A DNA stretch of 26,351 bases, taken from a virus. Below are positions 6,479 to 23,972 of this stretch, one piece after another. The notes beneath the pieces are model-generated. The model was not told the DNA's origin. It was given only the letters and a program-made list of their open reading frames with translations, and made no database searches. Position numbers and translations under genes: made by a program. Location of the stretch: the IMG/VR virus record IMGVR_UViG_3300029319_000421, positions 1 through 26,351 of that record; one strand, given 5' to 3'. Position 1 is the first letter of the stretch. Each line of letters starts with the position of its first letter.

Positions 6479-6683
6479 GAGAAGAATAAATGCAACTCTA
6501 CAACAGATTGGAGACAGTATGATTACTGGTGGGGTTGACAGTATGGAAAAATACAAATATATGTTAGGACAGGCAGCAGCCTATCAAATAATAATACAGG
6601 AAATCTCTAACCTGCAAAAAGAAGATGAAAAGGAGCCAAATGACGGAAACGTTATCGACATCAAAGGAAGTACCAAAAACTAA
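6444..6683 (+). CDS. Small conserved helical phage protein (79 aa)
   Basis: 79 residues from the ATG at 6444 (MLSGEQIIEKLKRRINATLQ). Upstream codons in this frame (back to 6378) lie wholly inside the preceding gene and look like shadow sequence. An AAAGG at 6434-6438 gives a ribosome site for 6444. The central ITGGVDSMEKYKYMLGQAAA segment resembles a recurring unit in marine and T7-like phage small proteins (a helix, then a TGG-like turn with Y.Y..G helix). It overlaps the previous gene by 35 nt and the GroES-like gene by 44 nt. Function unknown. Confidence 0.65.
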   Translation: MLSGEQIIEKLKRRINATLQQIGDSMITGGVDSMEKYKYMLGQAAAYQIIIQEISNLQKEDEKEPNDGNVIDIKGSTKN

Positions 6684-7101
6684 ACTGGCACTTCAAGAAA
6701 AATACGATCAAGAAAAAAAAGAAGAATCCCACGCAGTAAGACTAGATCCCGACAATATTAAGGAAATGGTAAGTCAATTACCAGAACCTGTTGGGTATAG
6801 AATTTTAGTTTTACCTTTTACACCAAAAGAGAAAACTAAAGGTGGAATATTATTTTCCCAAGAGCAATTAGATAAAGCTAGAATTGCAACTACGTGTGGT
6901 TATGTTTTAAAAATGGGAGATCTTGCATACAAGGACAAAGAAAAATTTAATAAACCTTGGTGCAAAATAGGAGATTGGGTAATGTTTGCCAGATATGCTG
7001 GTTCACGTTTACCAATAGAAGGTGGAGAAGTGCGAATACTAAACGATGACGAAGTGTTAGGGACCATAGGTGATCCCGAATCAGTTCTTCATTACATTTA
7101 A
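6640..7101 (+). CDS. groES: GroES-like co-chaperonin (phage Cpn10)
   Basis: 153 residues from the ATG at 6640, chosen over the in-frame ATG at 6625 because AAGGAG at 6630-6635 sits four bases before it. Residues ~1-45 are a charged extension absent from bacterial GroES; the Cpn10 fold follows: PVGYRILVLPF, then the mobile-loop region KEKTKGGILFSQEQ, CGYVLKMGDLAY, WCKIGDWVMFARYAG, and C-terminal EVRILNDDEVLGTI. GroES caps the host GroEL chamber; phage versions such as T4 gp31 allow folding of a capsid protein. Lying between portal and scaffold/capsid genes fits that role. I see no GroEL, so it should use the host's. The IEGGEVRILNDDEVLGTI layout is like phage Cpn10 proteins in cyanophages. Confidence 0.85.
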   Translation: MTETLSTSKEVPKTKLALQEKYDQEKKEESHAVRLDPDNIKEMVSQLPEPVGYRILVLPFTPKEKTKGGILFSQEQLDKARIATTCGYVLKMGDLAYKDKEKFNKPWCKIGDWVMFARYAGSRLPIEGGEVRILNDDEVLGTIGDPESVLHYI

Positions 7102-11611: not shown

Positions 11612-12706
11612 GTGGCTACTATAACTTACAAAGTAACCGTAGCAACGGGGACAACACAATACGGAACTGGTAATAGATTTTATATTAACGGTGAGCTAGC
11701 TCCTGTTTTGTATTTACAAGAAGGTAATACCTATATATTTGATCAATCTGATTCTAGTAATGCCTCTGGTGGTGTTCATCAAATTGCTTTTTCTAGAAAT
11801 CCAAATAATAGTCCAGTAGCTGCTTACACATCGGGTGTTACATCTACAGGGACACCAGGAAGTTCAGGAGCACAAACAACATTTAATGTTGCACCTGTAA
11901 GAACTACAGGCGCGCCTTTATTATTTTATTACTGCACAAATCACAGTGGTATGGGTAATACTGCACAAACTATTTCACCAACATCTGAAGAGACACAATT
12001 TAATCCTCAAATAGATGATATCATAGAAGAAGCATTTGAAAGAACAGGTGTTAAAAGTGCGAGAACAGGATATATGTTAAGATCTGCAAGAAGATCTTTA
12101 AACATTATGTTTCAAGAATGGGCAAATAGAGGCGTTCATTTATGGAAAGTAAAACTTGCAAAAGTTCCATTGGTAGAAGGTCAAGCAGAATATAATTTTG
12201 CAGCTGATTCAGAAAATTTTCCAGAAGATTTAGATACAGTTTTAGAAGCCTATTATAGAAATAATTCAAATGCAGCGGCTCCAGAAGATATTGCGCTTAC
12301 AAAAATAGATAGATCTACATATTCACAAACACCAAATAAGTTGGCAAAAGGAACACCATCACAATATTATGTGGAAAGAAAATTAAATCCAAGTATATTT
12401 TTATACACAACACCAAGTTCAAGTGTATCAGATTCTACAACTCCAAGTAATTTTCAATTTTGTTTTTATTATTTAGCAAAAATTCAAGATGCTGGTGCAT
12501 ATACAAATACATCAGATATAGTTAATAGATTTTATCCTTGTATGATGTCTGGTCTTGCATATTATTTAAGTCAAAAATATTCACCAGATAGAAGTCAAGA
12601 ATTAGAACGTAGATATGAAAGTGAATTATTAAGAGCTCTTGATGCAGATAATCAGGGCACATCTACTTTCATTTCACCACAAACATTTTATGGAGATGGA
12701 GTATAA
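11612..12706 (+). CDS. Head-tail adaptor protein with N-terminal cupredoxin-like domain
   Basis: 364 residues, GTG start, with AGGAG six bases upstream. Residues ~3-120 form a beta-rich domain with a complete type-1-copper-like ligand set: His56 (GGVHQIAF) and Cys108, His111, Met114 in YYCTNHSGMGN. This is the C-x2-H-x2-M loop plus upstream His expected of a cupredoxin; copper binding itself is inferred. From ~128 begins a separate helical module: FNPQIDDIIEEAFERTGVKS, YMLRSARRSLNIMFQEWANR and, near the end, FYPCMMSGLAYYLSQKYSPD. I recall this as the P22 gp4-like adaptor of marine phages, which seals the portal. No in-frame start lies between the domains, so it is a true fusion. The next ATG overlaps its stop by one base. 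Confidence 0.75.
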   Translation: MATITYKVTVATGTTQYGTGNRFYINGELAPVLYLQEGNTYIFDQSDSSNASGGVHQIAFSRNPNNSPVAAYTSGVTSTGTPGSSGAQTTFNVAPVRTTGAPLLFYYCTNHSGMGNTAQTISPTSEETQFNPQIDDIIEEAFERTGVKSARTGYMLRSARRSLNIMFQEWANRGVHLWKVKLAKVPLVEGQAEYNFAADSENFPEDLDTVLEAYYRNNSNAAAPEDIALTKIDRSTYSQTPNKLAKGTPSQYYVERKLNPSIFLYTTPSSSVSDSTTPSNFQFCFYYLAKIQDAGAYTNTSDIVNRFYPCMMSGLAYYLSQKYSPDRSQELERRYESELLRALDADNQGTSTFISPQTFYGDGV

Positions 12707-13341
12707 TGGGTAGATACGCTTCAGGAAAATATGCATACGCTATTTCAGATAGATCAGGATTAAGATTTCCTTATGATGAAATGGTTAGAGAATGGAATGG
12801 ATCATTAGTTCATTTTTCAGAATATGAACCAAAGCAACCTCAATTAGAACCAAAACCAGTTGGTTCTGACCCACAAGCTTTGTATAATCCAAGACCACAA
12901 CCTGCATCAAAAACAAGTTTAATACTTTTAGATTCTAATCCTTTTACAACTGTAATTTCTAGTGGAACAACTTTTGTAAATGTTTTTTCAGAAGATCATC
13001 AAAGAGCAGCAGGTTCTATAGTTAGATTTAGAGGTCCACCAGAAGTAATAGCAGCGGGTCCTGGTGGTGATGATTCAGATGACACTCCAAACTTACAACA
13101 ATTTCAAAATATACCTACATTTGACAACGTAAGTGATTTAAATAATACAAGTGGTTTTACAATTGCTTTAGGTAAAATAGATTCTTCGGGTAATATTACA
13201 GGAGCTACAACGACAGATCCTTTAACAGATCCAATAAATTTTTTTCATATAACTAGCACTAGCAATGCTACAACAGGAGGAGTATCTGGTGGTGGAGAAA
13301 ACTGTTCAGCAGGACCAGTAACATTGGAGGTAATTAATTAA
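12706..13341 (+). CDS. Virion structural protein (SGKYAYAISDRSGLRFPY type)
   Basis: 211 residues starting in a one-base overlap with the adaptor stop. The N-terminus MGRYASGKYAYAISDRSGLR FPYDEMVREWNG and the segment SDPQALYNPRPQP are landmarks I recall from marine-phage structural proteins ('GK.A...CDRSG.RYP...LV.EWNG ... DPQ.L.NPRP'). The middle is a beta-rich piece (TVISSGTTFVNVFSEDHQRA). The C-terminal third is Asp/Asn/Thr/Gly-rich and probably extended. It sits between two adaptor-type genes, so a neck or tail component is likely. No catalytic motif is seen. Confidence 0.68.
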   Translation: MGRYASGKYAYAISDRSGLRFPYDEMVREWNGSLVHFSEYEPKQPQLEPKPVGSDPQALYNPRPQPASKTSLILLDSNPFTTVISSGTTFVNVFSEDHQRAAGSIVRFRGPPEVIAAGPGGDDSDDTPNLQQFQNIPTFDNVSDLNNTSGFTIALGKIDSSGNITGATTTDPLTDPINFFHITSTSNATTGGVSGGGENCSAGPVTLEVIN

Positions 13342-13343
13342 TT

Positions 13344-14042
13344 ATGGCATACACTTTAACAAACTTAAGAGATGATATTAGAAACTATACTGAAGTTGGT
13401 AGTAATGTTTTAACGGATGCAGTTTTAGAAACTATAATTATAAATGCAGAAAATAAAATTCATAGAGCGATAGATACTGATCAAAGTGTATTTTATGCAA
13501 CATCAAATGCTATTGTTGGAAATAGATATGTTACGATACCTGATGATTTAAGAGCCATAAGATATGTACAACTTAAAGATTCAGCTGGGAATCAATTTTA
13601 TTTAGAACAAAAAGATACATCATACATAGCAGAATTTTACTCTACACCTGGTACATCAGCTGTAGATATACCTAAATATTATGCAAACTGGGATGAAGAA
13701 TTTTGGGTCTTAGCACCTACACCAGACCAAACTTATGAAATTACTTTAGCTTATGATAAGGAGCCAGAAACTATAACTGATACTACATCTACTCCCGCTC
13801 CAGCTACAGTTGGAACTTATTTGTCTAATAAATATCAAGATTTACTTTTATACTCGTGTCTGGTAAATGCATATGGATACTTGAAAGGTCCGGCAGATAT
13901 GTTACAATACTATCAAGGCCAATATAAAGAGGCAATAGAATCGTACGCGATCGAGCAAATCGGTCAAAGACGCAGAGACGAATATCAAGATGGTGAAGTT
14001 CGAGCTCAACTTAACGTTAAACCACCATCAAGTTATACATAG
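13344..14042 (+). CDS. Phage adaptor (head-tail connector) protein, SU10/gp6-like
   Basis: 232 residues, two bases after the previous stop. LTNLRDDIRNYTEVGSNVLT, LETIIINAENKIHRAIDTDQ, NRYVTIPDDLRAIRYVQLKD and a late SNKYQDLLLYSCLVNAYGYL helix, then YYQGQYKEAIESYAIEQIGQ. An N-terminal helical bundle, a central beta insertion ('F..LAPTPDQTYEITLAYDK') and two long C-terminal helices are the design of connector proteins that bind under the portal; I believe the SU10-type adaptor family fits best, but an HK97 gp6 or T7 gp11-like assignment is close. The C-terminal tail is Arg/Asp/Gln-rich and flexible. Confidence 0.72.
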   Translation: MAYTLTNLRDDIRNYTEVGSNVLTDAVLETIIINAENKIHRAIDTDQSVFYATSNAIVGNRYVTIPDDLRAIRYVQLKDSAGNQFYLEQKDTSYIAEFYSTPGTSAVDIPKYYANWDEEFWVLAPTPDQTYEITLAYDKEPETITDTTSTPAPATVGTYLSNKYQDLLLYSCLVNAYGYLKGPADMLQYYQGQYKEAIESYAIEQIGQRRRDEYQDGEVRAQLNVKPPSSYT

Positions 14043-15250: not shown

Positions 15251-15427
15251 ATGACGGCAATAGTAAACGGTGTTCAATACATTGGAGGTCAAACATCTCC
15301 AGATGAATTTATAAAAAATCAAGCGTCAACGATTGACGGAACTCAAACAATAGACAGTGCAGTTCTTGCAGGACCTATTACTGTTCCTGCAACTATAACA
15401 GTAACGGGGACTTTAGTAATAGTGTAA
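15251..15427 (+). CDS. Small virion-type protein (58 aa)
   Basis: A 58-residue ORF with AGGGGGAA before the ATG. MTAIVNGVQYIGGQTSPDEF is followed by Ile/Thr/Ala/Val strand-forming sequence ending GPITVPATITVTGTLVIV, which looks like a few repeated beta strands such as those at the tip of a fibre. Its stop overlaps the ATG of the first Gly-rich fibre by one base (TAATG), so translation is probably coupled. A helper or tip peptide for the fibre is plausible from position only. Confidence 0.6.
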   Translation: MTAIVNGVQYIGGQTSPDEFIKNQASTIDGTQTIDSAVLAGPITVPATITVTGTLVIV

Positions 15428-16773
15428 TGTCAAAGATAGAAGTAAATACAGTTGCACCACAATGCGGAACTACTTTAACACTAGGGGAATCTGGTGATAC
15501 AGTAACTCTTGGATCTGGCGCGTCACAAACAGGATTTGGTAGAACAGGAACTGTAGATTGGCAAACAGATATTAAAACTACAACTTTTACAGCTGCAAAC
15601 GGAGAAGGTTATTTTGTAAATACTACTAGTGGAGGAATCACAGTAAATCTTCCAGCAGGCACAGCTGGATCTATTGTGTCTATAAAAGATTATTTAGGAA
15701 CTTTTAATAGCGGCAACTGTACTGTCGCTGCAAATGGTTCACAAAAAATTAATGGTTTAACTTTAGATGCTACATTAAATCAAACCGGTCAATCTGTTAC
15801 TTTAATTTATTCAGATGACACACAAGGTTGGTTGAATGTTCAGACAGATACCACTGTTGTAGGAAAGTCTTATATAGCAGCAACAGGAGGAACTGTTACT
15901 ACAGTTTGCACAGATTTTAAAGTACATACATTTACAGGTCCAGGAACTTTTTGTGTTTCAGCAGTGGGAAATCCTACAGGTTCAGACACAGTTTCTTATT
16001 TAGTTGTGGCTGGCGGCGGTGCAGGATCGTCTTCTGATGTGGGTGGAGCTGGTGGAGCAGGTGGTTATAGAGAAGGTAGAGCAAGTTATGATACTTATTC
16101 AGTTTCTCCATTGAACGCACCAGCTGGTTTACCTGTATCTGTTCAAGGATACCCAATTACAGTTGGAGCAGGTGGAGCAGGTCAAGCTAATAACGCTGGA
16201 AATCCTGGAGTAAGGGGAGGAGAAGGAAATAATTCAATTTTTTCAACTATAACATCAGCTAAAGGTGGTGCAGGTGGTTCAGCAACTCCTGAAAATAATG
16301 GAACAGCAGGTGGTTCAGGTGGTGGTGGATCACATTCTAGTAGTGGTACTGGTGGAGCAGGAAATACACCTCCTGTAAGTCCACCTCAAGGAAATAGTGG
16401 TGGTAACGCCCCTGGAGCAGGAAATCCTGCTTATGGTGCTGGTGGTGGCGGTGGAGCTGGTGGAGCCGGTAGCGCTGGTACAACTTCTACAGGTGGGCCT
16501 GGTGGTCCAGGAGTGGCTACTTCAATTACAGGTGCCTCTGTCACAAGAGCCGGTGGTGGAGCTGGATCAGGAGATGCTCCAGGAACTGGTGGTACGGGTG
16601 GACCTGGTGGTGGTGGACCAAGTAATGCATCTGCTAGTGATGCAACGTCGGGAACGGCTAATACTGGTGGTGGTGGAGGCGGTGCCTCCGGACCTGGTGG
16701 TGGTGGATCTGGTGGAGCTTCTGGGTCTGGTGGATCAGGAATAGTTGTGATAAGGTATAAATTTCAAAATTAA
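15427..16773 (+). CDS. Glycine-rich tail fibre/adhesin, paralogue 1
   Basis: 448 residues. Residues 1-50 carry a short repeat-like N-terminus ending FGRTGTVDWQT (37-47). Residues ~50-140 are a beta domain (NGEGYFVNTTSG, VNLPAGTAGSIVSIKDY, VTLIYSDDTQGWLNV); a linker with FKVHTFTGPGTFCVS follows. From ~190 to ~440 the chain is mostly Gly/Ala/Ser in runs of GG separated by short motifs (YPITVGAGGAG, NTPPVSPPQG at 313-322), closed by SGIVVIRYKFQN. Gly-rich runs of this type form polyglycine-II helix sandwiches in known phage adhesins such as S16 gp38, and give receptor specificity. First of three tandem paralogues; the start overlaps the upstream stop by one base. A host-binding role is inferred from this architecture. 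Confidence 0.82.
   Translation: MSKIEVNTVAPQCGTTLTLGESGDTVTLGSGASQTGFGRTGTVDWQTDIKTTTFTAANGEGYFVNTTSGGITVNLPAGTAGSIVSIKDYLGTFNSGNCTVAANGSQKINGLTLDATLNQTGQSVTLIYSDDTQGWLNVQTDTTVVGKSYIAATGGTVTTVCTDFKVHTFTGPGTFCVSAVGNPTGSDTVSYLVVAGGGAGSSSDVGGAGGAGGYREGRASYDTYSVSPLNAPAGLPVSVQGYPITVGAGGAGQANNAGNPGVRGGEGNNSIFSTITSAKGGAGGSATPENNGTAGGSGGGGSHSSSGTGGAGNTPPVSPPQGNSGGNAPGAGNPAYGAGGGGGAGGAGSAGTTSTGGPGGPGVATSITGASVTRAGGGAGSGDAPGTGGTGGPGGGGPSNASASDATSGTANTGGGGGGASGPGGGGSGGASGSGGSGIVVIRYKFQN
16351..16377 (+). repeat. 27-base exact repeat shared by fibre paralogues 1 and 3 (copy 1)
   Basis: Bases 16351-16377, starting GGTGGAGCAGGAAATACACC, recur exactly at 19189-19215. The repeat encodes the Gly-Ala-Gly-Asn-Thr-Pro-Pro-Val segment at the heart of the Gly-rich domain. 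Direct orientation, about 2.8 kb apart. It could serve as a recombination site between fibre genes. Confidence 0.85.
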
Positions 16774-16775
16774 TT

Positions 16776-18149
16776 ATGACAAGCACAATTAAAGTAAACA
16801 ACGTTCAAAACCAATGTGGTCAAAACATTATTAACGAGAGTAGTAATACAATCACTATTGGCGCTAGTGGTGATACGATTGCTTTAGCATCAGGCGCAAG
16901 TCAGACAGGCTTTGGTAGGACAGGAACAGTAGACTGGCAAACATCAATTAAAACAGCTGCGAGTTTTACTCCAGCAAATGGTGAGGGTTACTTTGTGGAT
17001 ACATCAAGTAATGCTGTAACTGCAAATTTACCAGCAGGTTCTGTTGGAGCGATTGTAGCTTTTAAAGATTACGCACAAAATTTTGACACAAATGCTTTAA
17101 CTATCGTTGCTAATGGATCTGAAAAAATTGAAGGACAAACTTTTAATTTAATTCTAAATATAGAAGGACAAGGTGCTACTTTAGTTTATGGTGATGCTAC
17201 AAAAGGTTGGCAAGTTGTTAATAGTAACGACATTGCAAACGTACAAAAATTTGTAACAGCAACTGGTGGCACAGAAACGGTGGTTTGTACAAATTTTAAA
17301 GTCCACACTTTTACAGGTCCAGGAACTTTTGACGTTCAATGTGCTGGTAATCCAGGTGGTTCAAGTAGTGTAGATTATTTAGTAGTTGCTGGTGGGGGTG
17401 GTGGAGGAAGCCTCGGCGGCGGTGGAGGCGGAGGAGGTTTTAGAGAATCTCCTGGAACAGCATCAGGAAGTTATACTGCATCACCTTTAGGAACATCACC
17501 GGCTGTGGCTTTACCAGTTACAGCAAGAACTTTTCCAATTACAGTAGGTGCTGGAGGAGCAGGCGGTGGACCTACTCAACCAGGTGCAGCAGGTTCAGTT
17601 TCAACATTTTCAACAATTACTTCTGCAGGTGGAGGATTTGGTGGTGGACACGCAGGAGGTGCTATTGGAGCAGGTGGTTCTGGCGGTGGTCAAGGTTTTC
17701 CAAGTGGTCCAACTTCTGCAGGTGCAGCAGGAAATACTCCACCAGTTGATCCTCCTCAAGGTCAACCAGGAGGTGGTGGTCAAAATGCAAATACTTATTC
17801 AGGCGGTGGTGGAGGTGCTACAGAGGCAGGTGAAACAACTCCAGGTTCTGCTGGTGGTAGAGGTGGCGCAGGTGGAACAACTAACATACCTGGATCACCA
17901 ATATCAAAATCTGGTGGTGGCGGTGGAGGAATTAATGGTGCTGCTCCAGGAAGTGCAGGTGCAGGAAGTCCTTGTGGCTCTGGCGCGGCAGGAATAAAAG
18001 GTGGTAGTAGTGGAGCAGGACCAAGTGCAAGTGCAAACACTGGCGGTGGCGGTGGTGGGGGTGCACATACATCAAGTCCACCGACTGGCTCTACTAATGG
18101 TGGAGCAGGAGGAAGTGGTATCGTAGTAATAAGGTATAAGTTTCAATAG
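16776..18149 (+). CDS. Glycine-rich tail fibre/adhesin, paralogue 2
   Basis: 457 residues, two bases after paralogue 1 without a clear ribosome site, so probably translated by re-initiation. Same order: N-terminal stretch ending FGRTGTVDWQT, beta domain (NGEGYFVDTSSN, ANLPAGSVGAIVAFKDY, ATLVYGDATKGWQVV), FKVHTFTGPGTFDVQ, then a Gly-rich domain from about residue 200 with NTPPVDPPQG (320-329), ending SGIVVIRYKFQ. Differences from paralogue 1 are mostly in the Gly-rich half: different lengths of GGG runs and inserts such as TASGSYTASPLGTS and TTNIPGSPISKSG. Variable adhesive half with a conserved anchoring half suggests diversification of host contact. Confidence 0.82.
   Translation: MTSTIKVNNVQNQCGQNIINESSNTITIGASGDTIALASGASQTGFGRTGTVDWQTSIKTAASFTPANGEGYFVDTSSNAVTANLPAGSVGAIVAFKDYAQNFDTNALTIVANGSEKIEGQTFNLILNIEGQGATLVYGDATKGWQVVNSNDIANVQKFVTATGGTETVVCTNFKVHTFTGPGTFDVQCAGNPGGSSSVDYLVVAGGGGGGSLGGGGGGGGFRESPGTASGSYTASPLGTSPAVALPVTARTFPITVGAGGAGGGPTQPGAAGSVSTFSTITSAGGGFGGGHAGGAIGAGGSGGGQGFPSGPTSAGAAGNTPPVDPPQGQPGGGGQNANTYSGGGGGATEAGETTPGSAGGRGGAGGTTNIPGSPISKSGGGGGGINGAAPGSAGAGSPCGSGAAGIKGGSSGAGPSASANTGGGGGGGAHTSSPPTGSTNGGAGGSGIVVIRYKFQ
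17292..17323 (+). repeat. 32-base exact repeat shared by fibre paralogues 2 and 3 (copy 1)
   Basis: Bases 17292-17323, beginning AATTTTAAAGTCCACACTTT, recur exactly at 18742-18773 and encode the FKVHTFTGPG linker before the Gly-rich domain. Paralogue 1 has a diverged version at about 15917. This is the junction between the conserved and variable halves of the fibres. Confidence 0.85.
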
Positions 18150-18156
18150 GTAAATT

Positions 18157-19584
18157 ATGAGTGAAATAAAAGTAAATAAAATTAGTCCAAGAACAAATTG
18201 TGGCACAACACAATTAGGAGACGCTGGAGATACAATCACTGTTACAGGTGATTTAAAATCAAATTCAATTAAAACAGCATCTGGTTCAACTCTTACAATA
18301 GGTCAATCAGGTGATACTGTAACACTTGCTTCAGGTGCATCACAAACAGGGTTTGGTAGAACAGGAACTGTAGACTGGCAGACAGGATCAATTAAAACAG
18401 GAAACTTTACAGCAGCAAATGGTGAAGGTTATTTTATTGATACTACAAGTGGTGCAATTACAATGAGTTTACCAGCAGGAAGTGCTGGTGCAATAGTATC
18501 AGTTCAAGATTATGCAAACACATTTGATTCAAACGCATTAACAATAAATCCAAATGGATCACAAAAAATAAATGGTGGTGAAGGTGGTGCGGGAATAACT
18601 ATAAACACAGAATCTCAAGGGTTAACTTTTGTTTACGTTGATTCAACTCAAGGATGGAAAACAGTTCAAGACAACACTTTTGGAACAGCTGGATCTGCTT
18701 ATGTTGCAGCTACAGGAGGAACCATAACAACAGTTTGTACGAATTTTAAAGTCCACACTTTTACAGGTCCAGGCACATTTTGTGTATCTGCAGCAGGTGG
18801 TCCTAGTGGTTCTAATACAGTAGATTATTTAGTTCTTGCTGGCGGCGGTAGTGGAGGTTCAAGAGATAGAGCAGGTGGAGGTGGAGCAGGTGGTTATAGA
18901 GAATCATCAGGTGCTGCTTCAGGTTGTTACACTGCAAGTCCATTAGGATCTAGTGTTTCGGCATTACCGGTTTCAGTACAAGGTTACCCAATAACAGTTG
19001 GAGCAGGAGCTTCGGCAAATCCTGCAGTTAGTAGAGGAAATCAAGGTTCAACTTCAACTTTTTCAACAATATCTTCTGCTGGTGGTGGCGCTGGTGGAGG
19101 TGATAATGGTGATAGTGTTCCCGCATTAGCAGGTGGATCTGGTGGTGGAAGAGGTGTTGGTGGATTACCTTGTGGACCCGTACAGCCTGGTGGAGCAGGA
19201 AATACACCTCCTGTATCTCCGCCTCAAGGAAATAATGGTGGAGGTGGTCAACACAATGGAAATGGTGGATCAGGTGGTGGCGGTGGTGCTGGAGCTGTCG
19301 GAGTTGATGGAAATGGAAACCCCCCTGGACAAGGTGGCGCTGGCGGAAATGGTGTAGCAAGTTCAATTACAGCATCCCCTGTCACAAGAGGTGGCGGCGG
19401 TGGTGGAGGAGGAGATCAAGGACCACGACCTGGAGGATCAGGTGGTGGAGGTGCTGCTCTACCAGGAGGCGGAGCAGGAACAGCTAACCTTGGCGGTGGC
19501 GGTGGAGGTACCGACACAAGTGGTGGTTCAGGTGGCGCTGGAGGATCAGGAATAGTAGTAATAAGATACAAATTTCAAAATTAA
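18157..19584 (+). CDS. Glycine-rich tail fibre/adhesin, paralogue 3
   Basis: 475 residues. It differs from the other two by an N-terminal insertion (about 20-25 residues around DTITVTGDLKSNSIKTASGS, repeating the 'GDTxTxxG' unit), after which FGRTGTVDWQT, the beta domain (NGEGYFIDTTSGA, MSLPAGSAGAIVSVQDY, LTFVYVDSTQGWKTV) and FKVHTFTGPGTFCVS follow. The Gly-rich domain runs from ~224 and contains NTPPVSPPQG (349-358) and the shared end SGIVVIRYKFQN. Its YPITVGAGASANP and the 27-base DNA identity with paralogue 1, plus a 32-base identity with paralogue 2, point to mosaic exchange. Last gene before the enzyme block. Confidence 0.82.
   Translation: MSEIKVNKISPRTNCGTTQLGDAGDTITVTGDLKSNSIKTASGSTLTIGQSGDTVTLASGASQTGFGRTGTVDWQTGSIKTGNFTAANGEGYFIDTTSGAITMSLPAGSAGAIVSVQDYANTFDSNALTINPNGSQKINGGEGGAGITINTESQGLTFVYVDSTQGWKTVQDNTFGTAGSAYVAATGGTITTVCTNFKVHTFTGPGTFCVSAAGGPSGSNTVDYLVLAGGGSGGSRDRAGGGGAGGYRESSGAASGCYTASPLGSSVSALPVSVQGYPITVGAGASANPAVSRGNQGSTSTFSTISSAGGGAGGGDNGDSVPALAGGSGGGRGVGGLPCGPVQPGGAGNTPPVSPPQGNNGGGGQHNGNGGSGGGGGAGAVGVDGNGNPPGQGGAGGNGVASSITASPVTRGGGGGGGGDQGPRPGGSGGGGAALPGGGAGTANLGGGGGGTDTSGGSGGAGGSGIVVIRYKFQN
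18742..18773 (+). repeat. 32-base exact repeat shared by fibre paralogues 2 and 3 (copy 2)
   Basis: Exact copy of 17292-17323 in the third fibre gene, in direct orientation 1450 bases downstream, at the equivalent domain boundary. Confidence 0.85.
19189..19215 (+). repeat. 27-base exact repeat shared by fibre paralogues 1 and 3 (copy 2)
   Basis: Exact copy of 16351-16377 in the third fibre gene; the flanking sequences differ, and the second fibre has only a synonymous variant at this place. Confidence 0.85.
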
Positions 19585-20103: not shown

Positions 20104-20607
20104 ATGCAAAAGAAAGTATTATCTGAACAAGCTTTATATTATGGTGACGTGGCAATGCCTAAAGATTGGGACATTGACCGAGGTAAATTAGAAAAAGACA
20201 TTTTACAATCAGTAATTCAAAACAAAGAATTTCCATTCTCAAGAACTTGGGATATGTTGAATACATATATGCGAGATCACATTAATCTTGAGTATGGTTT
20301 TAATTTAATTAGTAAAAAAACGTGGGGCAATATCTATAAACCTGCAGAAACAACAATTCCATTATTAAATATAGATCCAGTAGATCTACGTAACTCACCA
20401 GATTATACACTGTTATATGGTGTCAAAGTTGAAGATTGTAATGTTAGAATATATTATGAAGATAATAGACGTAAAGGTAGATCTTGGGATATACCATTAG
20501 AAAATAATAAATTTATAATGTTTCCATCAACTAATATGTATTATTTAACTAATAATCAAAAGGATAGTTTAAATTTTGTACAAACTATAACGTATGAATA
20601 TATCTAA
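20104..20607 (+). CDS. Double-stranded beta-helix-like protein without visible iron ligands
   Basis: 167 residues. AAAGG at 20091-20095 gives good spacing to the ATG at 20104. Start MQKKVLSEQALYYGDVAMPK; the second half has LLNIDPVDLRNSPDYTLLYG, VRIYYEDNRRKGRSWDIPLE, NNKFIMFPSTNMYYLTNNQK and a final LNFVQTITYEYI. The strand order 'V.I.Y.DNRR.G..W..PL.NN..I.FPS...Y.........F..T..Y.Y' copies the C-terminal half of the 2OG-oxygenase fold, but the position where the distal His is expected (FPSTNMYY) has no His and no H-x-D is present, so catalysis by iron is unlikely. I recall homologues beside 2OG oxygenases in cyanophages. It may be a partner or regulatory subunit. The 3' end overlaps the next gene by 14 bases. 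Confidence 0.6.
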   Translation: MQKKVLSEQALYYGDVAMPKDWDIDRGKLEKDILQSVIQNKEFPFSRTWDMLNTYMRDHINLEYGFNLISKKTWGNIYKPAETTIPLLNIDPVDLRNSPDYTLLYGVKVEDCNVRIYYEDNRRKGRSWDIPLENNKFIMFPSTNMYYLTNNQKDSLNFVQTITYEYI

Positions 20608-21223
20608 TTACTATTGGTATTTTACTGGTGCGTTAACCCCTAGGTTCTGTGATGAGGTAATACAGTATGCTAATGCACAAAAAGAAGTTATGGCTAGGAC
20701 AGGTGGTTATGGTGATAAAAAATTAAATAAAGAAGAGATACTAGATTTAAAAAGAAAAAGAAACTCTGATTTAGTATGGCTCAATGATACTTGGATATAT
20801 AAAGAGTTACATCCCTATGTGCACGAAGCAAATAAAGCTGCTGGTTGGAACTATGATTGGGATAGAAGTGAGTCTTGTCAGTTTACAAAATATAAATTAA
20901 ATCAATACTATGATTGGCATTGTGATAGTTGGGACAAACCTTATGATAAAGAAGGACCCGAAAAAGGTAAGATTAGAAAACTATCTATGACTTGTCAGTT
21001 AACAGACGGATCAGAATATAAAGGTGGTGAATTAGAATTTGATTTTAGAAACTATGATCCACATATGCGAGACGAATCAAAACATAGAATACAATGTAAA
21101 GAAATATTACCAAAAGGATCAATCATTGTGTTTCCTAGTTTTGTGTGGCACAGAGTTAAACCAGTAACCGCTGGCACAAGATACAGTCTTGTTGTTTGGC
21201 ATTTAGGAAGACCATTTAAATGA
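20594..21223 (+). CDS. 2OG-Fe(II) oxygenase, prolyl-hydroxylase-like (PKHD type)
   Basis: 209 residues; ATG lies 14 bases inside the preceding gene. Fe(II) ligands are visible: His109 and Asp111 in YDWHCDSWDKP, distal His186 in PSFVWHRVKPV, and Arg196 in TRYSLVVWHLG to bind 2-oxoglutarate. Preceding SMTCQLTDGSEYKGGELEFD and EILPKGSIIVFPSFVWHRVK are the usual core strands of P4H/PKHD hydroxylases. These enzymes hydroxylate an unactivated C-H, typically a side-chain of a peptide or a small molecule, using O2 and 2-oxoglutarate. The substrate cannot be read from sequence. It ends in an ATGA overlap with the halogenase gene, so the two are probably co-translated. Confidence 0.87.
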   Translation: MNISNYYWYFTGALTPRFCDEVIQYANAQKEVMARTGGYGDKKLNKEEILDLKRKRNSDLVWLNDTWIYKELHPYVHEANKAAGWNYDWDRSESCQFTKYKLNQYYDWHCDSWDKPYDKEGPEKGKIRKLSMTCQLTDGSEYKGGELEFDFRNYDPHMRDESKHRIQCKEILPKGSIIVFPSFVWHRVKPVTAGTRYSLVVWHLGRPFK

Positions 21224-22704
21224 AAATATTAATTGTAGGTGGTGGAAGTGCAGGGTGGATGACAGCAGCCACTTTAGAATCACAGTTTCCAAATTATAAA
21301 ATATCATTAATTGAATCTAAAAATATATCTACAGTTGGTGTAGGTGAAAGCACTCTTGGTCAAATAACTGATTGGATGCGGTTGCTTAAAATAAAAGATA
21401 ACAATTTTATAAAACACGTAGATGGTAGTTATAAATTAAGTATAAAATTTACAGACTTTTATAAAAAAGGAGAGGCTTTTCATTATCCATTTGGAAAACC
21501 TGTTACAGAAGATACACAAGCAGGAATTAACGATTGGTGGTTTAAAAAAATACTTAATCCTAAAACACCCTATGCTGACTATGCAGATTGTACCTATCCT
21601 TTACAAATGGCTTATGTTAATCAAAACAAATTTGATATAAATGAAGTACAAAGGGCTTATCATTTTGATGCGACCAAGTTTGGTTTATGGTTAAAAAACA
21701 ATTATTGTAAAAAAATAAAACACATAGTTGATGATGTCATTTCCATAGAACAAGATAAAAATGGAATTAAATCTTTAAATAAAAAATATAAAGCTGATTT
21801 ATACATAGACTGCACTGGGTTTAAATCTTTATTACTGGACAAAACTTTAAAAGAACCTTTTGAATCATACTCTGATATGTTACCTAATGATTCTGCGTGG
21901 GCTACAAGAATCCAATACAAAAACAAAGAAAAAGAATTAGTGCCTTACACAAACTGCACAGCTATTGAAAATGGTTGGGTTTGGAACATACCTTTATGGT
22001 CTAGAATTGGAACAGGTTACGTATACTCAAGTAAATTTGTAGATGATGAAACAGCACTAAAAGAATTTAAAAAACATTTAGGTCAAGATAATTTAGAATT
22101 TAAAAATATAAAAATGAGAGTTGGTATTCATAATAGACTATGGGTAAAAAATGTAGTGGCAATTGGATTGTCTGCTGGGTTTATAGAACCATTAGAAAGT
22201 AATGGTTTATATACGGTTCACGAATTTTTAATAAAATTAATTAGAAATTTAGGTAGAGATAAAATATCTCAATGGGATAGAGATAATTTTAATTATCAGT
22301 GTAAACATATGTTTAGAGAGTTTTCTGAATTTGTAGCAATGCATTATGCTTTATCTCATAGAGACGATACAGAGTATTGGAAAACTTGTAATAATAAATC
22401 TTGGGAAAAAAATTTAATAAATTTAAAACCCACATCTGTTTCAGGTTTTAAAGAAGCAGTTTGGAGAAGAACTTATGAGTGGAGATATCCTTCTAATACA
22501 GGTCTTCATTGCATTGCAGCTGGTATGCATTGGGCTCCTACCGATAAAGTATCTTTAATAAAAGAAGGTGGTTTTTCAGAGGAATCTATTGAAGAAAAAT
22601 TTGAATCTGCTATAGAAAAATTAAATGATAGAAAGGAATTGTGTAAACAGCTTGTTAAAGAAAAACCAAATTTGTTTTCAGTTTTAAAAAATGTACATAA
22701 ATAA
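21220..22704 (+). CDS. Flavin-dependent tryptophan-halogenase-like enzyme
   Basis: 494 residues, in the usual range (PrnA 538, PyrH 511). It oxidises halide with FADH2 and O2 to a hypohalous acid that is held by a lysine and transferred to an aromatic or other electron-rich substrate. Visible: FAD-binding GGGSAGWMTA (7-16); VGVGEST (39-45); Lys72 in DGSYKLSIKFTDF, aligned to the catalytic Lys79 of PrnA; WVWNIP at 253-258, the W-x-W-x-I-P diagnostic motif; and FIEPLESNGL (321-330) with Glu326 aligned to PrnA Glu346. All expected catalytic landmarks are intact. No flavin reductase is in the window, so the host must provide FADH2. Cyanophage Syn10 VirX1 shows that phages encode active halogenases, there preferring iodide. 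G+C is low (about 25-32% in sampled lines), like its neighbours. Confidence 0.92.
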   Translation: MKILIVGGGSAGWMTAATLESQFPNYKISLIESKNISTVGVGESTLGQITDWMRLLKIKDNNFIKHVDGSYKLSIKFTDFYKKGEAFHYPFGKPVTEDTQAGINDWWFKKILNPKTPYADYADCTYPLQMAYVNQNKFDINEVQRAYHFDATKFGLWLKNNYCKKIKHIVDDVISIEQDKNGIKSLNKKYKADLYIDCTGFKSLLLDKTLKEPFESYSDMLPNDSAWATRIQYKNKEKELVPYTNCTAIENGWVWNIPLWSRIGTGYVYSSKFVDDETALKEFKKHLGQDNLEFKNIKMRVGIHNRLWVKNVVAIGLSAGFIEPLESNGLYTVHEFLIKLIRNLGRDKISQWDRDNFNYQCKHMFREFSEFVAMHYALSHRDDTEYWKTCNNKSWEKNLINLKPTSVSGFKEAVWRRTYEWRYPSNTGLHCIAAGMHWAPTDKVSLIKEGGFSEESIEEKFESAIEKLNDRKELCKQLVKEKPNLFSVLKNVHK

Positions 22705-23323
22705 TTATTTTAACACGACCATTTGGTCAGAACACAAACCAGAGTTTGTTAAGTCTTTAAATAAAGCGAGTAACAAATATATTAAAGAATCGAGAGACAG
22801 AAATAAAGCACATATTAAAAAATATGGAGACTTTGGATTGTCTCATCACTCAACACCACTTACAGTCGATAACGATTTTTTAGATTTTAGAAATTACATT
22901 GGTCAAAAATCTTGGGAGTATTTAGATCATCAAGGTTATGATATGTCACAATATCAAACTATTTTTAGTGAGTTATGGGTACAAGAGTTTTCTAAAAAAG
23001 GTGGTGGACACCACAGTGCACACATACATTGGAATCAACACGTATCGGGTTTTTATTTTTTAAAGTGTAGTGATAAAACTTCTTATCCAATATTTCACGA
23101 ACCGAGAACAGGTGCTAGAGCTACAAAATTAAAAATGAAACCAGATCAAAAAGGTGTGTGGCCAGGTTCAGAACTTATACATTTTAAACCTACACCAGGC
23201 ACATTAATTATATTTCCAGGATTTTTGGAACACGAATATGCAGTAGACTATGGCATAGAGCCTTTTAGATTTATACATTGGAATATACAAGCAGTGCCAA
23301 AAGAAATGGCTAAAGATGTTTAA
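22691..23323 (+). CDS. 2OG-Fe(II) oxygenase, 2OG-FeII_Oxy_5-like
   Basis: 210 residues, overlapping the halogenase by 14 bases. FSELWVQEFSKKGGGHHSAH IHWNQHVSGFYFLKC holds the His111-x-His113 pair with 'HxH.N...SG.YYL' spacing typical of the phage family known as putative 2OG-Fe(II) oxygenase (PF13759-like). ELIHFKPTPGTLIIFPGFLE with His181 (FLEHEY) gives the distal ligand, and Arg193 in PFRFIHWN may hold the 2OG carboxylate. The first metal site is less canonical than a plain H-x-D, as usual in this family. The N-terminal 60 residues are charged and not typical of the core. Substrate unknown. It overlaps the next gene by eight bases. Confidence 0.8.
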   Translation: MYINNYFNTTIWSEHKPEFVKSLNKASNKYIKESRDRNKAHIKKYGDFGLSHHSTPLTVDNDFLDFRNYIGQKSWEYLDHQGYDMSQYQTIFSELWVQEFSKKGGGHHSAHIHWNQHVSGFYFLKCSDKTSYPIFHEPRTGARATKLKMKPDQKGVWPGSELIHFKPTPGTLIIFPGFLEHEYAVDYGIEPFRFIHWNIQAVPKEMAKDV

Positions 23324-23972
23324 AAAGAAAAAATATACAATAATACGTCAAGCAATATCAAAAGATCTAGCAGCTTTTGTTGCAAATTATTTTTTAATGC
23401 AGAAACAAGTATATGATACTTGTAAAGTGTCTAGATACTTTTCACCTTTTGAAACCATACTTGGATATTACGAAGGTGAGAATGAACAGATTCCAAACAC
23501 CTATTCTGCTTATGGTAATATCGCTATGGAAACTTTATTACTTAAATGTCAACCAGAAATGGAAAAAGCAACAGGATTAAAATTATATCCAGCTTACACT
23601 TATGCTAGAATATATAAAAAAGGTGATGAATTAAAAAGACACAAAGATAGATTTAGTTGTGAGATATCTACTACTATGAATCTTGGTGGAGATGACTGGC
23701 CAATATATCTAGAACCAAATCCTAAAAAAGGTGGTGTAAAACCAGGTGTTGGATATGTATCTGATAACACTAAAGGTGTTAAAGTAGATTTAAAACCAGG
23801 AGATATGCTGGTTTATTCTGGCTGTGAGCTAGAACATTGGAGAGAAAAATTCAAAGGCAAAGAATGCGTACAGGTTTTTCTGCATTATAACAATCGTAAG
23901 ACCCCAGGAGCGAAGGATAATATGTTTGACAAACGTCCACATTTAGGTCTTCCTAACTGGTTTAAACGATGA
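23316..23972 (+). CDS. 2OG-Fe(II) oxygenase-like protein
   Basis: 218 residues, overlapping the previous gene by eight bases. Landmarks are YARIYKKGDELKRHKDRFSC (His109, Asp111), STTMNLGGDDWPIYLEP and DLKPGDMLVYSGCELEHWRE (distal His174), then ECVQVFLHYN. The spacing of about 63 residues between H-x-D and the distal His is typical of the double-stranded beta-helix. The usual 2OG-binding Arg is not obvious (Gln186 occupies the neighbourhood), so activity is likely but the co-substrate site may be variant. I recall related proteins in cyanophages. The C-terminus (KTPGAKDNMFDKRPHLGLPN) forms a tail. Last gene of the enzyme block, followed by a hairpin. Confidence 0.78.
   Translation: MFKKKKYTIIRQAISKDLAAFVANYFLMQKQVYDTCKVSRYFSPFETILGYYEGENEQIPNTYSAYGNIAMETLLLKCQPEMEKATGLKLYPAYTYARIYKKGDELKRHKDRFSCEISTTMNLGGDDWPIYLEPNPKKGGVKPGVGYVSDNTKGVKVDLKPGDMLVYSGCELEHWREKFKGKECVQVFLHYNNRKTPGAKDNMFDKRPHLGLPNWFKR

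Follow-up and report, generated by a model that had tools for sequence, protein, structure and literature searches.

The locus analysed here raises the question of what a domain resembling a copper protein is doing at the N-terminus of a head-tail adaptor, a protein placed at the neck of the virion. The gene lies in a virus record of 26,351 bases, and this whole stretch of DNA is referred to below as the window. We took up the question from an earlier note on the same sequence, considering the gene, its two parts, the putative metal site and the spread of the domain in turn.

Gene structure and translation

The open reading frame encodes a single protein, in which residues 3-122 are cupredoxin-like and residues from about 124 to 364 form the adaptor.

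11612-12706, plus strand: coding sequence of the fused adaptor, 364 amino acids, GTG start; 79% identity over 364 residues in phage 023Pt_psg01
11601-11605, plus strand: Shine-Dalgarno sequence AGGAG, six bases 5' of the GTG

A second reading of the frame and its translation agreed with the earlier note on the open reading frame, on the GTG start and on the numbering of His56, Cys108, His111 and Met114, and the strong ribosome site that it reported ahead of the GTG has a Shine-Dalgarno-like counterpart, likewise before the annotated start, in 78 of 79 sequences. Its remark that there is no internal start is literally wrong, as Met114 is encoded by an ATG in frame. It is unlikely that the adaptor is translated on its own from this codon, since a Shine-Dalgarno-like sequence precedes it in none of 82 sequences, against 78/79 at the GTG. 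The fusion is also present in all of the best 80 close relatives fetched, the query being the full-length fused protein. Together these data corroborate the view that the fusion is genuine. The cupredoxin domain is under purifying selection, with a median dN/dS of 0.20 compared with 0.12 for the adaptor part (2487 of 3321 pairs usable).

The adaptor part and the kinship of the virus

11981-12703, plus strand: head-tail adaptor part, residues 124-364; phrog_12985; homologues match PF24175 SU10_adaptor; adaptor fold matches
13344-14042, plus strand: second SU10-adaptor-family protein (PF24175, E 1.3e-19), in the neck/tail gene cluster

The match to phrog_12985 covers residues 134-356. Searched alone against Pfam, the adaptor part of the window gave no match; aligned homologues in Roseobacter phage CRP-901 (1.2e-13) and phage DSL-LC04 (8.5e-13) match PF24175 above the cut-off. 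The model of residues 122-364 reaches a pLDDT of only 72.9. With this model Foldseek listed phage adaptors first (cyanophage A4, 1.2e-6; VP1; GP4; SU10, 1.3e-4) and VIA-align matched LME-1 (Z 10.4, rmsd 3.9 over 101) and T7 gp11 (Z 8.8, rmsd 3.7 over 99). Searching PDB sequences with the adaptor profile returned nothing useful. The head-tail adaptor identity proposed before is thus supported through the homologues and the fold matches. The adaptor does follow the cupredoxin domain as described, and the start given for it, about residue 128, should be moved slightly upstream, to about residue 124, where homology begins. The TSEETQF of the window (within ISPTSEETQF) aligns with the TSGTTxF that starts the unfused adaptors (MATSGTTxF), indicating that the junction with the extra domain falls almost exactly on the adaptor N-terminus. 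The SU10-type portal and adaptor proteins mean a short tail, and short tails have no sheath, so the earlier idea of a tail-sheath decoration is rejected.

The closest named relative of the protein is that of phage 023Pt_psg01, in which the neck genes also have the same order, followed by those of the Pelagibacter phages HTVC023P and HTVC027P; the adaptor part is 51% identical to that of HTVC023P. By sequence the virus belongs with the HTVC023P-type pelagiphages and, since these are its closest relatives, its host is probably SAR11. The adaptors of HTVC023P and HTVC027P are without the cupredoxin domain, which shows that the domain is dispensable in the lineage. In HTVC027P gp64 (L083:3007-3945) an insertion of unrelated sequence occupies residues 85-170 or so instead, which shows that the decoration of this adaptor differs from phage to phage.

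Other genes of the window include a GroES-like co-chaperonin (6625-7101, PF00166) upstream of the capsid gene and three similar glycine-rich proteins in tandem (15427-19584; 448, 457 and 475 amino acids), the first of which matches PF21722 Gly_rich_2. Within the structural region, at 20594-23972, a gene of the tryptophan halogenase family (21220-22704) lies among 2OG-Fe(II) oxygenase-like genes.

Predicted fold of the N-terminal domain

11618-11977, plus strand: cupredoxin-like domain, residues 3-122; profile match E 8.9e-36; copper-protein fold matches

The AlphaFold model of this domain, built with 51 homologues, has a pLDDT of 92.0 and a pTM of 0.86. The leading PDB matches in Foldseek are multicopper oxidases and rusticyanin, and VIA-align matched a copper nitrite reductase over 101 residues (Z 10.2, rmsd 2.5) as well as small laccases (Z about 9); identity to the solved structures in the listed matches is just 9-18%. 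In the model His56 lies directly ahead of strand 58-61, Cys108 closes strand 103-108, and His111 and Met114 fall in the loop preceding strand 116-121. A histidine before a strand, a cysteine at a strand end and a histidine and methionine in the loop that follows is the arrangement of cupredoxins. The strand order and the fold matches fit a cupredoxin site, in which the four residues would lie close together. The cupredoxin-like fold put forward in the earlier note is therefore what structure prediction also returns, the best fold matches being cupredoxin domains, and we consider a fold of this kind with a type-1-type site very probable.

Sequence similarity to named copper families is faint. 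The window copy is covered by no curated Pfam or NCBIfam family and gave zero matches to their copper families. Weak matches were obtained from its 51 homologues to PF00127 Copper-bind (14; best 3.5e-5), PF25489 (At5g54830-like; 12) and TIGR02656 plastocyanin (9; best 1.8e-4). With the single domain as query, a PDB sequence search found unrelated chains only (E 0.19 and above); with the domain profile it found mostly copper proteins, yet at E of only 0.023 and above. The domain profile detects no second cupredoxin elsewhere in the window (next best match E 0.33). We also observed that short stand-alone 'beta-sandwich proteins' of marseilleviruses/pithoviruses (BFVD A0A481YVH3, A0A481Z7Q7 and A0A481Z6J5) match the domain model at E 5e-6 to 9e-5.

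Conservation of the putative copper ligands

11777-11779, plus strand: codon of His56, putative copper ligand; invariant in the 12- and 51-domain alignments and present in 79/82 close homologues
11933-11935, plus strand: codon of Cys108, putative copper ligand; conserved in homologue alignments
11942-11944, plus strand: codon of His111, putative copper ligand; conserved in homologue alignments
11951-11953, plus strand: codon of Met114, putative axial ligand; conserved, and also the in-frame ATG without a ribosome site

The full type-1 ligand set in canonical order and loop, as first read from the window, holds in the homologues. Among 12 phage domains with identity down to 29%, His56, Cys108, His111 and Met114 are invariant together with five other residues. 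In an alignment of 51 diverse domains they are the sole invariant columns; this alignment comprises the window and 50 of 54 representatives (L001, L231, the second L294 copy and one of the two L317 copies were dropped), and the invariance of the methionine is partly due to the omission of L231. In that distant copy (L231:4468-4884) the axial methionine is replaced by glutamine (C-x2-H-x2-Q), a set found in 1/477. Glutamine is the axial ligand of stellacyanin.

The same picture was obtained with a ligand-blind sample, drawn from IMG/VR by a profile scan with the half of the domain that precedes His56. In the best 80 loci all 85 copies keep the histidine followed by C-x2-H-x2-M (76/85) or C-x2-H-x3-M (9/85), the latter nine lying outside the exact motif and being assigned by eye; the pattern of this sample, [TV]YxF[DL]QSD[STN], is typical of canonical copies, so that degenerate ones are under-sampled. 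The genome scan behind L255-L321 used a pattern with fixed Cys, His and Met and is informative on His56 alone. The arrangement is not a chance motif: C..H..M occurs once in the open reading of all six frames of the window (19,205 residues), and the absence of the histidine plus C..H..M from 20,000 shuffles of the domain residues, together with the invariance in relatives, rules against chance.

Exceptions are few. All four ligands are present in 79 of 82 adaptor fusions by multiple alignment (for His56, pairwise alignment counted 75/80). In the other three (L028, L029 and L043) His, Cys and His are jointly changed to Gln, Ser and Thr with the methionine kept; the three resemble one clade, and the loss may have been one event. 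They represent a natural ligand-less control for the site. In gp10-like baseplate proteins one copy is without the C-x2-H-x-M loop, and the gp10-like reading frames of cyanophage type with a copy minus the Cys-His-Met loop (L175-L254) stand beside gp9-like proteins with a fully liganded C-terminal copy. The site is thus usually retained whole or lost as a unit.

These counts bear on the main rival to a copper site, namely an inert domain that acts as spacer or decoration, with ligand residues that serve folding or hold a different metal, for example zinc, and with copper uninvolved. The ligand-less versions on the same adaptor and in gp10-like proteins show that the scaffold manages without the site. 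Phages often carry beta-sandwich decorations, and the HTVC027P adaptor has its own, unrelated insertion. Against this, four dispersed ligands are kept exactly even at 29% identity and stay in place while the loop between them varies in length. The joint loss of His, Cys and His and the exchange of Met for Gln both suit a real type-1 site, and fit it better than a need of folding. We therefore regard the inert domain as unlikely and the copper site as the better reading.

Distribution of the domain among virion proteins

12706-13341, plus strand: next gene, phrog_28581; relatives in other phages have the same domain at the C-terminus, the window copy is without it

The earlier note had treated the domain as a feature of this adaptor, where it is indeed present, and our analysis showed it to be far more widespread on neck and tail proteins. 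We sorted 481 domain-bearing reading frames (L482 and above were left out by design) into adaptors with the domain N-terminal (83), gp9-like fibre connectors (84), gp10-like proteins (77; they hold two or more copies each, which were sorted roughly), relatives of the next gene product (71, with the domain C-terminal in 67), other reference proteins (69) and those with no match (97). Relatives of the next gene that bear a C-terminal cupredoxin are found at L095-L174, L402-L481 and others. Tail fibres are among the carriers, and the domain occurs on many unrelated proteins, often midway in long ones. Cultured phages with the domain include Pelagibacter phage HTVC028P and cyanophage S-TIM5; in HTVC023P the next gene, like the adaptor, is without it. 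The PHROG families matched by the domain profile are tail, baseplate, virion-structural or 'unknown' entries.

Both the adaptor and the next gene were present at 318 loci (268 distinct pairs; L094 is the window itself), and the domain lies on the adaptor only in 84, on the next gene only in 78, on neither in 156 and on both in 0, a zero that persists at a loose cut-off. As these loci come from several queries with the best 80 taken for each, and contigs recur, the fractions are not natural frequencies. At L459 a divergent adaptor has its own N-terminal cupredoxin, whose nearest neighbour in the domain tree is the domain on the next gene of the L474 phage, which points to a possible second fusion event. 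The tree has few columns and unsettled bootstrap values and was used for the adaptor clade (100/100) and for the position of L459 outside it (93/92, not starred). By its distribution the domain is a mobile virion module, present in many marine viruses on proteins of the neck, the baseplate and the fibres.

Bacterial copies are placed at the end of lipobox lipoproteins of SAR86 and Woeseiaceae. The marine bacterial proteins at L302, L304, L308, L312, L314, L317 and L321, mostly from these two groups, start with a lipobox and a glycine run and have the domain further on, where it is often terminal.

The presence of the same domain on surface lipoproteins of marine bacteria and on tail fibres favours another alternative, in which virions would collect copper, either out of sea water or off the host, and use it to engage the host's uptake of copper or the copper proteins on its surface, as a counterpart to the iron 'Ferrojan horse'. 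The adaptor, however, is not a receptor-binding tip, and we know of no copper-uptake partner or receptor for these phages. PMC11705849 takes up iron-binding HxH sites of phage tail fibres together with the Trojan-horse idea, and with this precedent included we still find copper carriage decidedly improbable.

A proposed metal-holding docking module at the neck

The explanation that we favour overall, with a chance that we put at about even, is an outward-facing, metal-stabilised cupredoxin on the adaptor ring, serving in docking or adhesion. In this reading the protein is a subunit of the adaptor ring, which connects the portal with the tail of a short-tailed, HTVC023P-type marine phage, and a cupredoxin bearing a type-1 copper ligand set has been spliced onto its N-terminus. 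Adaptors of the SU10 type being dodecamers, the neck would by analogy be ringed by about 12 copies of the domain; the SU10 adaptor binds portal and nozzle and has six sites for long tail fibres (PMC9509320). We infer that the domain faces outward, where it would lie near the level of fibre attachment.

The ligand set is what makes copper the likely metal, taken up perhaps after lysis or in a cell envelope, and we think it fairly probable that copper is bound in virions. Docking or adhesion is a call that could fall either way. An external module of this kind is the most likely role because the domain is carried by the adaptor (a fibre dock), the gp9-like connector, the gp10-like wedge and fibres and, in bacteria, by surface lipoproteins. 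Ig-like domains on other phages presumably act in a similar way. The domain would move between virion genes because its position matters and not the identity of its carrier. Against the proposal count the three close homologues without ligands (3/82), the HTVC023P and HTVC027P adaptors without the domain, the lack of a match of the window copy to the copper families of Pfam and NCBIfam, and the great scarcity of free copper in the cytosol, where virion proteins assemble.

A redox switch or electron carrier, which would sense the host envelope and help to trigger tail opening, draws on the complete ligand set and on the fact that the type-1 sites of solved relatives are electron-transfer centres. 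The SU10 adaptor also adjoins parts that rearrange at ejection (PMC9509320), but no redox partner is seen, the copies sit on many unrelated proteins, often inside long ones, and ligand-less versions replace the domain on the same adaptor, which makes this role very unlikely.

For the docking module, its recurrence in neck and tail proteins suggests that marine virus particles may carry copper. A broader form of the proposal, which we hold to be speculative and unlikely, is that the virions of many abundant marine phages are metalloparticles that contain copper, with the type-1 copper module ringing the neck in about 12 copies or studding the fibres, the copper being used in host contact or genome release and the module being common to SAR86 and Woeseiaceae surface lipoproteins.

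Novelty and comparison with known systems

The fold and the adaptor were already known, and it is their combination and placement that are new. Among openly licensed papers we found no description of this module, and searching by term the main text of PMC9599517, the paper on genomes of the HTVC023P type, gave no mention of it. Should copper be bound, some of the common phages of the ocean would hold a pool of copper and a metal centre that lacks a known virion role, and the loss of one cysteine would be a direct test of virion metal in infection. With or without copper, the mobile virion module has no name as yet and merits its own family model.

The domain resembles the type-1 cupredoxins (amicyanin, plastocyanin, rusticyanin and the domains of CuNIR and laccase) in predicted fold, in strand order and in a histidine followed by C-x2-H-x2-M. 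This spacing is identical in the alignment to that of the C-terminal domain of CuNIR 9cck, and the amicyanin loop is likewise C-x2-H-x2-M. It differs from them in belonging to a virion protein without a signal peptide, in which copper is presumed from the ligands. Like the Ig-like domains, it is a promiscuous beta-sandwich on unrelated phage virion proteins, but unlike them it keeps a conserved set of metal ligands. By profile, PHROG tail families 30742, 27200, 677, 693 and 708 have the same domain, in entries not named copper-like; these carry it within fibres or baseplate proteins, whereas the window protein has it on the neck adaptor. The C-terminal 240 residues are like SU10 gp11 (PF24175) and T7 gp11, with homology through relatives and fold; the members of these families that we examined begin at the adaptor part, to which the window protein adds the N-terminal cupredoxin. 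The iron-binding HxH sites of tail fibres (PMC11705849) share with the module the proposal of a metal in phage tail parts, while the fold, the ligands and the metal of the cupredoxin module are others.
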